From an uncultured Bacteroidales bacterium (GTDB taxonomy: Bacteria > Bacteroidota > Bacteroidia > Bacteroidales > WCHB1-69), in contig ONCM01000005.1 of NCBI GenBank assembly GCA_900316305.1, positions 1-64,000 of the forward strand: 64,000 nt of DNA, read 5' to 3'. Shown here one piece after another: positions 1,630-29,970 of this stretch. Made by a program: the position numbers and the translations under genes. The notes beneath the pieces are model-generated. The model was not told the DNA's origin and ran no database searches. It saw only the letters and a program-made list of their open reading frames with translations. Within the stretch, counting starts at the first letter, position 1. Each line of letters opens with the position of its first letter.

Positions 1630-4086
1630 TTATTCCTGCACATACACGCGGGGCACTCGACGGGAAATGCGGGTCATCAGTTCATAACTGATAAGCCCGG
1701 CAGCCTCTGCCATCTCGGTAACCGTATTGCCCTCGCCATAGACGATGACCTCATCACCTTCGTGGACGCGGAGACCTGTGACATCCAACATACACATGTC
1801 CATGCAAATCTTACCGATGACCGGCACCTTCTGTCCTTGCACCAAGACTTTGCCGCGACCATTGCACAGCTCACGCGGATAACCGTCAGCATAACCAATA
1901 GGGATGATGGCCACTTGCGTATCGCGCCGCAGCTTCCATGTACGGTTGTATCCGATGGTCTCGCCCGCCGGAATCCGTTTGATTTGGGTAACCACCGTCT
2001 TGAGGGTAACCACATTGTGCAGCATGGGCGCCATTTCCGGTATCTCGGAACAGCCATAGAGCTGGATTCCCAGACGCACCATATCAAACTGCGCCTCCGG
2101 AAAACGGATAATGCCGGCACTATTGAGGATGTGGCGCAGAATTTTGTAGTCAAAAGCGGCACAGATCTTATCGGTCATGCGACCGAAAAGCGCAATTTGC
2201 CGACGGGTGAAGGCGTCTTCGGCCGGGTCTTCAGCAGCAGCAAGGTGTGAGAAAACCGATGCAATATGCAATTTCGGATTACGCTTCACGATGTCTATGA
2301 GACGGGGAAGATCTTCCATATCGAAGCCCAGACGATGCATACCCGTATCTACCTTAATATGGATATTGAACTGCGAAATTTCCGGATGACGTGCCAACAC
2401 CTCTTCCAATTGCTGCAGATAGTAGAAGTTGAAGATTTCCGGTTCCAAACGATGGTTCACCATCACCTCAAAGCTATGCGCCTCAGCCCCAAGCACAATA
2501 ATCGGAGTGTCGATACGGCGCTTGCGCAAACGCACACCCTCATCCGTATAAGCCACGGCAAGGTAATCAACACCTTGGTCCAACAAGGTATTCACCAATT
2601 CCACATCGCCCAAACCGTAGGAAGAGGCTTTCACCATCGCCACCATCTTCGTATCGGGACGCAGACGATTACGATGGTAATTGAGATTGTAGGCTAACGC
2701 GGGCAAATTGACCTGCATGATGGTCAAGTGCGTTTTATGTTGTAACGCATTGACAATCTGCTCAAAATGGAAATTACGGGCACCTTTCACCAAAATAATT
2801 TCGTATGAAATAGGTAAATTGGGAAGATGTTCCAACAAATCAGCCGTATCATGGAAGAAAAGTTGCTCTTCAAGATCGAAAATATCCCGATAGGATTCAA
2901 AAACAGAACCCACTGCTACCAATCTGGCAATGTGGTGCCGTTTCAACTGGGCATTCAACCTCCGGAAATCGTCCTCAGTCAAGCGTCCGACCTGCTCGAA
3001 ATCAGAGATAATGAGCGTCTTCTTGCCCATTTGAGTCTGCGTGTCCAAAAAGTTGAGTGCAGCGGATAACGAATTGATATCCAGACTGTATGTATCATTT
3101 ACGATGACGGAATGGTTGCGACCCTCCAAAATTTCCAGTCTCATGCTGATGTGCGTAAGGCGTCCCAACCGGCTGTTAATCTCTTCCGGTTTGAAACCAA
3201 CATATAACAACGTGACAATCACATGAGTGACATTCTCCAAAGAGGCACTGTCGATGAAGGGCACAGTATAATCAAAGCCGTCGAGGGTGATGACCGTTCC
3301 GCCATTGTCCGCTGTCCGCATCTGTACCGGATACGTGCTATGCGCGTCACCCCAAGAGATAATCTTAAGATGGGCATATTCCGGCAATTGCAAAACCATA
3401 TTAAGCTCTTGATTATCATTATGATAAATCAACACTTCCACATTTTGGAAGAGTTTGAGCTTTTCGATGATTTTGCGGACATTGTTTTGGAAGAACTGGG
3501 CATGCGCAGCACCGATATTAGTCAAAATACCGATGGTGGGATCGATAATATCCGCCAAAGTTCGCATTTCGTTGGGCCGGGAGATACCCGCCTCAAAAAC
3601 GGCGATATCATGTTGGTCGGACATTTTCCAGACGGAAAGCGGCACCCCGAGACGTGAATTGTAGCTATCAGGACTTTTCACCACCCGAAATTTTTCATCC
3701 AAGATGGAAGTCAGCCACTCCTTGACGATGGTTTTGCCATTGCTGCCTGTAATGCCAATCACGGGGTAGTGGAATTTCTGGCGATGTCGCTGTGCCAATC
3801 GCTGCAAGGCCGTCACAGAATCCTCCACAAAGAGAAAGTTGGCTTTTTCGCACGTCGCATAGCTCTCCATCACTTTGGTTATCACAAAGTTGCGAACGCC
3901 CATTTGATATAAAGAGGGGATAAACAGGTGTCCGTCATTCTTTTCTGTTTCAATAGCGAAGAAGAGCGTGTGCTCAGGCAACAGCACCTTGCGGCTGTCG
4001 ATGGCCAACTCGGTGATTTGTGCATCAGGTGTGCCCAAGATGGTTTCTTGAGGCTCTATATATCTTATTATTTCAGAAAGTTGCAT
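1630..4086 (-). CDS. murF-alr: bifunctional UDP-MurNAc-tripeptide:D-Ala-D-Ala ligase / alanine racemase
   Basis: An 818-residue fusion of two peptidoglycan precursor enzymes. Residues 1-455 are MurF: ATP P-loop GITGSNGKT at 111-119 and the VKGARNFHFE segment near 433-442. Residues about 456-818 are alanine racemase: the PLP lysine is K486 in MVKASSYGLGD, and the C-terminal catalytic region has GYNRTW. Alr makes D-alanine from L-alanine and MurF adds D-Ala-D-Ala to the UDP-MurNAc tripeptide, so the fusion joins D-Ala supply to its use in the cytoplasm. This fusion is known in Bacteroidota. The gene is transcribed alone, divergently from truA, from a TACTTTTG box at 4120-4113. Confidence 0.95.
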   Translation of the reverse strand: MQLSEIIRYIEPQETILGTPDAQITELAIDSRKVLLPEHTLFFAIETEKNDGHLFIPSLYQMGVRNFVITKVMESYATCEKANFLFVEDSVTALQRLAQRHRQKFHYPVIGITGSNGKTIVKEWLTSILDEKFRVVKSPDSYNSRLGVPLSVWKMSDQHDIAVFEAGISRPNEMRTLADIIDPTIGILTNIGAAHAQFFQNNVRKIIEKLKLFQNVEVLIYHNDNQELNMVLQLPEYAHLKIISWGDAHSTYPVQMRTADNGGTVITLDGFDYTVPFIDSASLENVTHVIVTLLYVGFKPEEINSRLGRLTHISMRLEILEGRNHSVIVNDTYSLDINSLSAALNFLDTQTQMGKKTLIISDFEQVGRLTEDDFRRLNAQLKRHHIARLVAVGSVFESYRDIFDLEEQLFFHDTADLLEHLPNLPISYEIILVKGARNFHFEQIVNALQHKTHLTIMQVNLPALAYNLNYHRNRLRPDTKMVAMVKASSYGLGDVELVNTLLDQGVDYLAVAYTDEGVRLRKRRIDTPIIVLGAEAHSFEVMVNHRLEPEIFNFYYLQQLEEVLARHPEISQFNIHIKVDTGMHRLGFDMEDLPRLIDIVKRNPKLHIASVFSHLAAAEDPAEDAFTRRQIALFGRMTDKICAAFDYKILRHILNSAGIIRFPEAQFDMVRLGIQLYGCSEIPEMAPMLHNVVTLKTVVTQIKRIPAGETIGYNRTWKLRRDTQVAIIPIGYADGYPRELCNGRGKVLVQGQKVPVIGKICMDMCMLDVTGLRVHEGDEVIVYGEGNTVTEMAEAAGLISYELMTRISRRVPRVYVQE

Positions 4087-28645: not shown

Positions 28646-28678
28646 CAACGGCGGTCAAATGACCGCCGTTGGTTTGTT
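28646..28678 (+). terminator. terminator of ssb
   Basis: A perfect 12-base stem CAACGGCGGTCA / TGACCGCCGTTG with a two-base loop, followed by GTTTGTT. Confidence 0.8.
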
Positions 28679-28689
28679 AATTTAACAGA

Positions 28690-28826
28690 AAGAGTCTTTC
28701 GTCTTGACACAATTACTGGCCACAGCATTGCCGTAGCGGCGCGAAGAATTCCCCTTCTATTTTAGAAGGGGTGCCCGGAGGGCGGGGTAGTAATATAAAA
28801 GATTGGCCGTCAGGCCATCATTATAA
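28690..28826 (+). repeat. left inverted repeat of the DUF559 unit
   Basis: An arm of about 135 bases that aligns with the reverse complement of 29261-29396. Shared blocks in order: CTTTCGTC, CTGGCCAC(A/G)GCA, GAATTCCCCTTC, GAAGGGGTGCCCG(G/A)AGGGCGGGGTAG, ATGGCCGTC(here TTGGCCGTC) and ATCATTAT. The core 28747-28800 holds two small hairpins (CCCCTTC...GAAGGGG and GCCCGGAGGGC). It ends 20 bases before the DUF559 ATG. Confidence 0.85.
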
Positions 28827-28846
28827 AAATCAGAAAAACAAAAAAT

Positions 28847-29263
28847 ATGACTATTATCAACGACATCAAAATCAAAGACAACTATGTCCGTAATCTCCCT
28901 GAAAACAAGGAACTCTCAATCTACGCACGTATAAATCGCAAGGCCGGAAACATGGCCGAAATAGCGTTCTGGATGCAAGTTCATAAGAAGAAGTTTCACG
29001 GTCTTGACTTTGACAGACAGAAAGTCATCGGCAACTATATCGTTGACTTTTTCGTGAAAAAGCTTGGACTTGTAGTTGAGATTGATGGTGGCTCACATAA
29101 CGAGAAAACAGAATACGATGCAAAAAGAGACATATACTTAAAAGGTCTCGGGCTGAAAGTCTTCCATACAACGGATTTTGACGTACTTCAGCATGTGAAT
29201 ATTGCGTTGGATGATTTGAGGAAGTTCATTGTTGAGAATTACGAGTATGAAAATATTGAATAA
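28847..29263 (+). CDS. DUF559 (Vsr-like) endonuclease domain protein
   Basis: 138 residues. The PD-(D/E)XK-type core of the DUF559/Vsr-like family is visible: FHGLDFDRQKVIGNYIVDFF, then LVVEIDGGSH with the catalytic-site acid and glycine motif near 79-88, YDAKRDIYLKGLGLKVF, and a C-terminal helix. The N-terminus (residues 1-40, KAGNMAEIAFW) matches the family's short helical start. Likely a small nuclease; its physiological role is not established. The gene is framed by long inverted repeats whose right arm begins at the stop codon, so gene and repeats look like one mobile or repeat-propagating unit. Confidence 0.88.
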   Translation: MTIINDIKIKDNYVRNLPENKELSIYARINRKAGNMAEIAFWMQVHKKKFHGLDFDRQKVIGNYIVDFFVKKLGLVVEIDGGSHNEKTEYDAKRDIYLKGLGLKVFHTTDFDVLQHVNIALDDLRKFIVENYEYENIE

Positions 29264-29396
29264 TGATAGCTGGACGGCCATTGTATCCCCCTACCCCGCC
29301 CTTCGGGCACCCCTTCCCCAAGGGAAGGGGAATTCCGCTCACTCCGGCACGGGAGTGCCGTGGCCAGAAAGCATTTACATTACGACGAAAGAGTCC
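29261..29396 (-). repeat. right inverted repeat of the DUF559 unit
   Basis: The reverse complement aligns with 28690-28826 with small gaps and about three of four bases equal. The core 29283-29334 is the best-kept part. The arm begins with the TAA stop of the DUF559 gene, so gene end and repeat are contiguous. From 29397 to 29548 no gene is seen. Confidence 0.85.
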
Positions 29397-29548
29397 GTTT
29401 TTTCGACAAAACTGTCTCTGAAGATTCATCACCCGCTCTTTTCAGCCAAGCAGAACGTCAGTATCATTTCCTGTTAACGCAGTACGAATGAAAAACAATC
29501 ATTCATGGTGGCAACTGCCATCTTCCTCACAATGGTGCTGAAGGCCCC

Positions 29549-29602
29549 AATTCCCCTTCTATTTTAGAAAGAGTACCCTAAGGGCGGGATAGTAATATAA
29601 AA
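29549..29602 (+). repeat. third, solitary copy of the DUF559-unit repeat core
   Basis: The first 21 bases (AATTCCCCTTCTATTTTAGA plus A) are identical to the left arm core (28747 onward). The rest, AGAGTACCCTAAGGGCGGGA, differs at several positions and then returns to identity with TAGTAATATAAAA. It has the same direction as the left arm and no gene attached. Confidence 0.85.
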
Positions 29603-29638
29603 TATCAAGAATCCTTGTGAAAAAAAATGATGGCCATC

Positions 29639-29923
29639 TCAATTCCGTGATTTGTAGTGTACTTTTTTCACGTTCTCCAACTGACAGTTTAACTCCTCTG
29701 CACTCCAATGTTTCCCCTTTTTCTTTTTGTTAAAAAAAGGAAAACCATCCTCAATCCACTTCTGGCGATACGATTCAAAAGTGAAACCGTTGGATTCATC
29801 ATCAAATCCAAATTCGAAGCCACAACATGGACAGATGACATAGGTCGGATATCCATACTCATCATATGGCACATCAGGCAACGCCTCGTAACCACATACG
29901 GGACATATTCTAAGGTTTTCCAT
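29639..29923 (-). CDS. small cysteine-rich (CPCC-type) zinc-ribbon protein
   Basis: 94 residues. Two cysteine knuckles, CPVCGYEALP near 8-17 and CPCCGFEFGFDD near 32-43, would make a zinc ribbon. Then FTFESYRQKWIEDGFPFF and a basic C-terminus. This resembles the cysteine-rich CPCC family, some of which are immunity proteins of contact-dependent or polymorphic toxins; no toxin gene lies nearby. Function unknown. It sits between the repeat copy and alaS, and both it and alaS read leftward. Confidence 0.65.
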   Translation of the reverse strand: MENLRICPVCGYEALPDVPYDEYGYPTYVICPCCGFEFGFDDESNGFTFESYRQKWIEDGFPFFNKKKKGKHWSAEELNCQLENVKKVHYKSRN

Positions 29924-29970
29924 TATATAATTATAATAATGAAGCCTCTGATATCAAATCAACAAAACAC

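Follow-up and report, generated by a model that had tools for sequence, protein, structure and literature searches.

Organization of the locus

The window (the whole 64,000-nucleotide stretch of DNA that was analyzed, from an uncultured Bacteroidales bacterium) carries, between ssb and alaS, a small DUF559 gene enclosed by two inverted arms, each of which contains one intact copy of a short core repeat (Table 1). The sequence-only reading had described a Vsr-like nuclease gene and arms of about 135 bp forming inverted repeats over their whole length, the right one starting at the stop codon, and this description holds: the encoded protein matches Pfam DUF559 with an E value of 3.6e-24, and the arms align over their full length with small gaps, at a local score of 88 (the maximum in 300 shuffles being 27). 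In both intact cores the tail points at the gene. The third, gene-free core listed in that reading also exists, in the same orientation as the left core, but its fold has decayed; its DNA fold z is +0.83, whereas both intact cores score -2.8 to -3.4, and it was ruled out as an intact copy.

Table 1. Coordinates of the features of the DUF559 locus (numbering of the window)
Feature	Position	Strand	Basis
DUF559 endonuclease gene, 138 aa, Vsr / PD-(D/E)XK-like fold	28847..29263	+	Pfam match, conserved residues, structure model
Left inverted arm	28692..28824	+	aligned with the reverse complement of 29260-29395
Right inverted arm, starting at the stop codon	29260..29395	-	same arm alignment
Left triplex-type motif: hairpin CCCCTTCT/AGAAGGGG, second hairpin inserted (TG CCCGGAGGGC), predicted third strand GGGGTAGT	28751..28791	+	
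Right triplex-type motif, inverted: hairpin arms CCCCTTCC / GGAAGGGG, predicted third strand GGGGTAGG	29290..29331	-	
Third core copy, without gene, decayed	29549..29605	+	88% identity to the left core; no stable fold
Approximate stretch missing from the ssb-alaS interval of close relatives, ends approximate	28670..29960	.	

The 3.28-Mb genome of the window contains one standalone DUF559 gene and one weak match within a 451-residue frame, as well as numerous copies of the core. A BLAST search found 26 matches at E<=10, of which 22, including the three copies in the window, had E<2e-4, and a covariance model, built from 19 of the copies in this genome and applied only within the family of the window, found 31. 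One of these places (L004) is an inverted pair of cores separated by a short spacer, with the gene absent, which is what a gene-less derivative of the nuclease unit would look like. Several other gene-less cores of this genome (e.g., L008-L013, L015, L017, and L019) lie within composite repeats that have TTAGCAGTTAGTAGTTAG runs and a GGTCGAAGGACC palindrome on one side, and those at L008-L012 bear on the opposite side a module like AACCCCACACAAG..GCAGTGTGGGG. In the window itself, the stretch missing in relatives includes a 94-residue open reading frame (29639-29923, minus strand) with a sub-threshold resemblance to Lar restriction-alleviation proteins (Pfam E 0.0043, NCBIfam E 0.013).

The core as a triplex-type repeat

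The consensus of the 19 copies reads ATTCCCCTTCT-loop-AGAAGGGG-TGCCCGAAGGGC-GGGGTAGT. RNAalifold finds two hairpins in it, as had been read from the sequence, with the conserved GGGGTAG tail accounted for by neither; the core is better described as a hairpin and a G-rich third-strand tail, with a further hairpin set into a loop. Placed antiparallel to the purine arm, the tail GGGGTAGT has the bases that a purine-motif triplex requires, G where the arm has G and A or T where it has A. By reading, this rule fits 8/8 in each of the two intact cores of the window. Across 34 distinct cores of the family it is obeyed at 134 of 134 testable positions, testable positions being those beyond the anchoring GGGG, with two positions that have T in the purine arm lying outside the rule and left uncounted. 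The anchoring GGGG and the spacing carry no evidential weight, since both were built into the search pattern. Position 8 exhibits triple covariation, in that a change of the stem pair from T-A to C-G goes with a change of the tail from T/A to G (29/29 and 3/3, p = 2e-4).

The same relationship is found beyond the family. Near DUF559 genes, a third-strand match in 7 or more of 8 positions accompanies 117 of 125 hairpins, compared with 18% for shuffled tails, the best of about 30 offsets being taken for real and shuffled tails alike; hairpins farther away on the same contigs also have such a match in 45 of 61 cases. Near DUF559 genes the fit is 0.968 in the antiparallel and 0.873 in the parallel orientation. 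On the strength of these sequence patterns, the core looks able to fold as an intrastrand triplex.

Repeats of this kind, known as BoxC or PIT, were noticed in E. coli in the 1990s, and a 2015 survey by Holder et al. counted the G/C-rich triplex type in more than 260 prokaryotes (PMC4666352). According to the available part of that survey, E. coli K-12 has 23 copies of the motif; an E. coli oligonucleotide forms a stable triplex in vitro, whereas a stable triplex in vivo is unsupported; no transposase or integrase remnants lie at the E. coli sites; and the repeats are tied to genome instability in E. coli, the motif loci being unstable, with the mechanism left open (PMC4666352). The core resembles BoxC/PIT/TM elements in its C/G-rich hairpin and G-rich third strand, as well as in being dispersed and partly arranged in inverted pairs. 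C-rich and G-rich hairpin arms are present in the cores of the window, and the antiparallel third strand follows the purine rule. In contrast to the survey, which searched for loops of 1-6 nt, the second loop of the family cores has 12-18 nt in the examples considered and bears a hairpin, so that the family core is a variant rather than a strict BoxC/PIT/TM member. A further difference is that the repeat is here tied to DUF559, whereas the words "nuclease" and "endonuclease" are absent from the available text of the survey (PMC4666352).

The DUF559 protein

Ten residues are invariant in 61 DUF559 proteins (R31, E38, W42, Q58, G62, D67, F68, H84, D91, and R94 in the numbering of the window protein), and E78 and D80 are conserved at 90% or more. 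The structure model of the window protein (pLDDT 87.7) has as its best PDB match the Neisseria DUF559 structure 3hrl (Foldseek E 1e-6), followed by the catalytic domain of the homing endonuclease I-Bth0305I (Foldseek E 4e-4, TM 0.58/0.79). AbaSI, some mitoribosomal proteins, and Vsr (1vsr, Foldseek E 0.06) lie beyond the E mark of 0.001.

The window protein shares its catalytic-domain fold with the EDxHD enzyme I-Bth0305I, and a DUF559 gene has already been filed with the EDxHD group in one cyanobacterial paper, as far as its accessible part indicates (PMC9403480). Unlike a homing endonuclease of that type, the window gene is located in no visible intron or intein and is flanked by dispersed triplex-type repeats. 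The Vsr-like fold is likewise shared with Vsr and with Caulobacter VsrA, which contains a DUF559 domain (PMC12907096, available part), the difference being that the context of the window gene is a dispersed repeat. Metal-dependent hydrolytic nucleases are not known to form a covalent intermediate, nor are nucleases of the Vsr/EDxHD fold known to form one with DNA; any spread by such an enzyme would consequently need host repair or replication.

Association of DUF559 genes with the repeats

The covariance model finds the core in 78 of 104 genomes of the family of the window, and 58 of the 104 have a DUF559 match. Among the loci compared, standalone DUF559 genes of the class found in the window (frame of at most 210 residues, E between 1e-28 and 1e-17) number 20. 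In 14 of these the core is present, inverted, on both sides with its tail always toward the gene, and in two it is present on one side (L048, at a contig end, and L052, where two genes stand in a row). The core of the window is absent from the remaining four, three of which have other C/G palindromes close by when inspected by eye. The other DUF559 classes of the family (fused, or with E below 1e-28) are without the core of the window; different C/G palindromes are located near some of them.

For a comparison across phyla, a contig scan with a six-protein alignment was used to select the best 80 of 585 relatives, which, judged by their titles, represent at least 14 phyla, archaea included. Of 72 DUF559 genes, 55 have a C/G-rich hairpin within 300 nt (40 of them on both sides), compared with 31 of 1326 control windows, eight of the 80 loci being excluded from this test; none by this definition is found near the other 17 of the 72. 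The hairpins are concentrated at the gene: the nearest 300-nt bin contains 119, and the nine bins beyond it contain 2-8 each. An inverted-repeat score of at least 36 is reached at 36 of 71 DUF559 genes and at 4 of 1261 control positions on the same contigs, and a score of at least 45 at 25 of 71 and at none of 1261, with nine of the 80 loci excluded because their flanks were too short. Thus the repeats, which the sequence-only reading had supposed might accompany DUF559 genes elsewhere, occur in further genomes and adjoin such genes far above chance.

Ten DUF559 loci (Neisseria, Methylobacterium, Sphingomonas, Synechocystis, Azospirillum, Pseudanabaena, Qipengyuania, Sinorhizobium, Photobacterium, and Deinococcus), chosen from 32 matching records of a plasmid collection, all have C/G-rich palindromes beside the gene as judged by eye, and four have an inverted-repeat score above 50. 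The identity of the nucleases covaries with the similarity of their repeats (Mantel r 0.34, p = 5e-4, 60 loci), also among pairs below 50% identity, for which rho is 0.20 with pairs that are non-independent. That DUF559 is linked with triplex-type repeats appears close to certain.

Individual loci differ in their arrangement. In Sphingomonas parapaucimobilis (L091, 2977-3387), the DUF559 gene lies between sufB and sufC, inside the suf operon. In Neisseria gonorrhoeae (L089), the species from which the solved structure 3hrl comes, long repeats that are direct, not inverted, flank DUF559 when viewed by eye, with a C/G palindrome within.

Copy number of the repeats and presence of the nuclease

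Gene-bearing genomes are richer in repeats, although not strictly so. In the family, the median number of cores is 24 in 33 genomes with a window-class standalone DUF559 gene and 3.5 in 66 genomes without one (genus-stratified permutation, p = 5e-4), genomes with only another DUF559 class being entered as without, counts near 60 per genome being read as at least 60, and, of six coreless genomes, one that has the gene (G101) being entered as 0 and five remaining outside the count. Against a strict dose relationship, 16 family genomes have at least 15 cores but no window-class standalone gene, some of them with another DUF559 class or a fragment, and six genomes have the gene but at most six cores.

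The contrast recurs in two larger samples, whose p values take no account of kinship and whose counts may include one or two copies that flank the gene itself. Among 156 genomes of Cyanobacteriota, the motif is present in 46 of 77 with a strong DUF559 match (E of 2e-19 or better) and in 9 of 79 without (odds ratio 11.5), and at least five copies are found in 22 of 77 and 1 of 79, respectively. Among 184 genomes of Gammaproteobacteria, the class around the genome of L160 (Microbulbifer halophilus), the corresponding values are 32 of 41 with DUF559 and 18 of 143 without (odds ratio 24.7), and 22 of 41 and 11 of 143 for at least five copies. In a set of 30 DUF559 genomes, searched across phyla with one motif pattern that misses other motif types, the pattern matches in 16, with up to 268 copies, and in none of the other 14; the reversed pattern matches in none.

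E. coli provides a further case, with ycjD as its DUF559 gene. DNA of ycjD is present in 3365 of 5426 complete E. coli genomes. Beside it (L221, about 3497-3533) lies a 37-nt motif with a C/G hairpin and a G-rich third strand, whose second loop is TTA, as in type A of Holder et al. in the accessible part of their paper, the two being likened by form and not letter by letter; genomes that have any such motif have it in a median of 19 places. In 60 rows spaced evenly over 5422 records, one of them a plasmid, the median is 22 motif places in 37 chromosomes with ycjD (14-33) and 4 in 22 without (2-23), the ycjD place itself being counted. Since the lineages are clonal, this contrast represents few independent comparisons. 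A clean empty site at sapF-fabI was not found in the two strains without ycjD that were inspected, MS20645 (L282) and O157:H7 C1-057 (L283); in both, the place next to fabI that sapF-ycjD takes up in K-12 is occupied by a TetR-RND efflux operon.

Alleles without the unit, in-frame insertions, and their ends

Alleles of the ssb-alaS interval without the unit, proposed earlier as a check on mobility, were found in relatives. Of 29 ssb loci, 12 have alaS beside ssb, and in the other 17 alaS gave no match, because the contig ends or the gene order differs. The gap measures 74-164 nt in 11 of the 12, compared with 1336 bp in the window, with no DUF559 match and no core in that stretch. In the twelfth (L185) the two genes are separated by about 850 nt of different sequence, in which DUF559 likewise gave no match. 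The extra stretch of the window may represent more than one event, since it also holds the small open reading frame and the third core, and the difference could in principle reflect loss in the relatives. The gene-less inverted pair at L004 is present in genome G000 and absent from G008, where the flanks are 94% and 93% identical and about 36 bp of other sequence occupy its position. A second hairpin repeat, GTAGAGACGC..GCGTCTCTAC, abuts the end of the L004 pair (L004 1653-1680) and is kept in the genome lacking the pair as well (G008 contig C112, near 32155).

In 34 of the best 80 of 585 relatives, the DUF559 domain lies in an open frame of at least 300 residues. Nine of these frames, scanned with Pfam, place it between or beside domains of HsdR, HsdM-type methylases (two), HisF, Dxr, and CbiC, with the rest being EPSP synthase/NUDIX, an SMC/AAA-like protein, and a type ISP enzyme; cases with an N-terminal DUF559 may be run-on frames and not insertions. 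Compared with solved homologues, the insert comprises 141 residues in one HsdR (L102, 264->441 vs 267->303) and 144 residues in one HsdM (L132, 462->614 vs 448->456). Both are in frame, with the palindromes translated at their edges.

The ends of solo motifs do not follow a transposon pattern. Direct repeats of at least 9 nt at the edges occur in only 3 of 141, so a classical transposon with target-site duplications was rejected as a general rule, although one case is clear: a single triplex-type motif inside hsdM (L132, 10342-10372) has a perfect 23-nt direct repeat on its flanks, like a fresh insertion with a long duplication. Among the alleles compared, no transposition event with precise ends was seen.

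Proposed mechanism and alternative explanations

The unit in the window is probably one copy of a selfish two-part system, comprising a DUF559 nuclease and an intrastrand-triplex repeat that the nuclease would spread. In the proposed mechanism, the Vsr/EDxHD-type nuclease would recognize the folded repeat or the inverted pair and cut there; repair or replication by the host would then place a further copy of the repeat at a new site, either together with the gene or alone. Cores that stand singly without the gene, and inverted pairs like the one at L004, would be non-autonomous copies that depend on a nuclease acting in trans, much as REPINs depend on RAYTs. Copying in the manner of homing is preferred to transposition of the DDE kind, given that target-site duplications are no general feature and that no covalent intermediate is known for the fold. 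The pairing of gene and repeat across bacteria and archaea suggests that the DUF559 family is the missing agent that spreads the long-known triplex repeats.

Whether DUF559 and triplex repeats together constitute one pan-prokaryotic selfish class, in which a nuclease spreads a DNA-triplex repeat, seems to us evenly balanced. If true, such a class would explain why BoxC/PIT repeats range from E. coli to archaea, and would also explain the in-frame insertion of nucleases into restriction-modification and other genes. It would also give a role to DUF559, a widespread domain of unknown function, and would imply a separate, independent origin of the REP/RAYT strategy, based on a different enzyme fold. 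With a dedicated nuclease, the spread of the repeats becomes open to direct test in E. coli K-12, where ycjD and the repeats occur together. Literature joining DUF559 or ycjD to BoxC/PIT triplex repeats, or DUF559 to "inverted repeats" or "REP sequences", was not found in a search with most subscription journals outside its scope.

The causality might also be reversed, with the repeats spreading through instability of their own during replication or repair, and DUF559 acting as a free-standing homing endonuclease that targets them; since the repeat would be its target, the gene would keep landing between inverted copies. We consider this unlikely, even though several observations agree with it. 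The best fold match after the DUF559 structure is a homing endonuclease, I-Bth0305I, which, in the accessible part of its description, is said to dimerize on a target of nearly 60 bp (PMC3943268), gene-less inverted pairs exist, and the E. coli motif loci are reported to be unstable. Reverse causality alone, however, leaves unexplained both the higher copy number in gene-bearing genomes and the fact that the type of repeat tracks the similarity of the nucleases.

It is very unlikely that DUF559 is instead a Vsr-like enzyme of repair or structure processing, selected where repeats are frequent, with the association arising from co-selection or local regulation. Such a role is in keeping with Caulobacter VsrA, read as a mismatch-repair enzyme and argued, in the available part of the paper, to function in very-short-patch repair (PMC12907096), and with Vsr being a fold match, if a weaker one. 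A housekeeping helper, however, need not sit between inverted repeats in distant phyla, nor in frame inside hsdR and hsdM with translated repeat edges.

A hairpin lying just beyond a gene is often a terminator, but the idea that the palindromes are terminators or mRNA hairpins decorating a cargo gene moved by another enzyme is scarcely credible, given that third-strand rules are kept with triple covariation, that hairpins (by a slightly narrower definition) are found beside only 38 of 710 predicted control genes on the same contigs, and that earlier work, as cited in the available part of the survey, found E. coli motifs without promoter or terminator activity (PMC4666352).

Comparison with other repeat systems

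In the preferred reading, of a nuclease that spreads its repeat, a parallel is provided by REP elements and RAYTs, the latter being tyrosine transposases linked to GTAG-tagged REPs, according to the accessible part of the source (PMC3733652). The sequence-only reading had drawn this comparison, and it stands as a good analogy: in both systems short palindromes, some of them in inverted pairs, flank one copy of the gene, and many dispersed copies are gene-less. It does not extend to membership, since the window enzyme has a Vsr/PD-(D/E)XK fold and belongs to DUF559, not to the tyrosine transposases, and the window repeat is of the triplex type. GTAG does occur in the tail of the core, where the third-strand rules call for it as well. 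The resemblance, as far as this comparison goes, is one of function and not of descent.

DDE transposons and MITEs differ from the present repeats in that, as described above, no target-site duplication is general at the motif ends. Rickettsia palindromic elements are palindromes inserted in frame within protein genes; the in-frame inserts described here differ in that they also contain a nuclease domain. DUF559 lies in frame at recurring hsdR/hsdM positions in a number of loci (L101, L102, L103, L105, L107, L112, L115, L121, L132, L147, and others), and same-site inserts in several phyla may have been inherited along with the restriction genes. The translated palindromes that edge these inserts are exemplified by PSPSGRGAGGEG.
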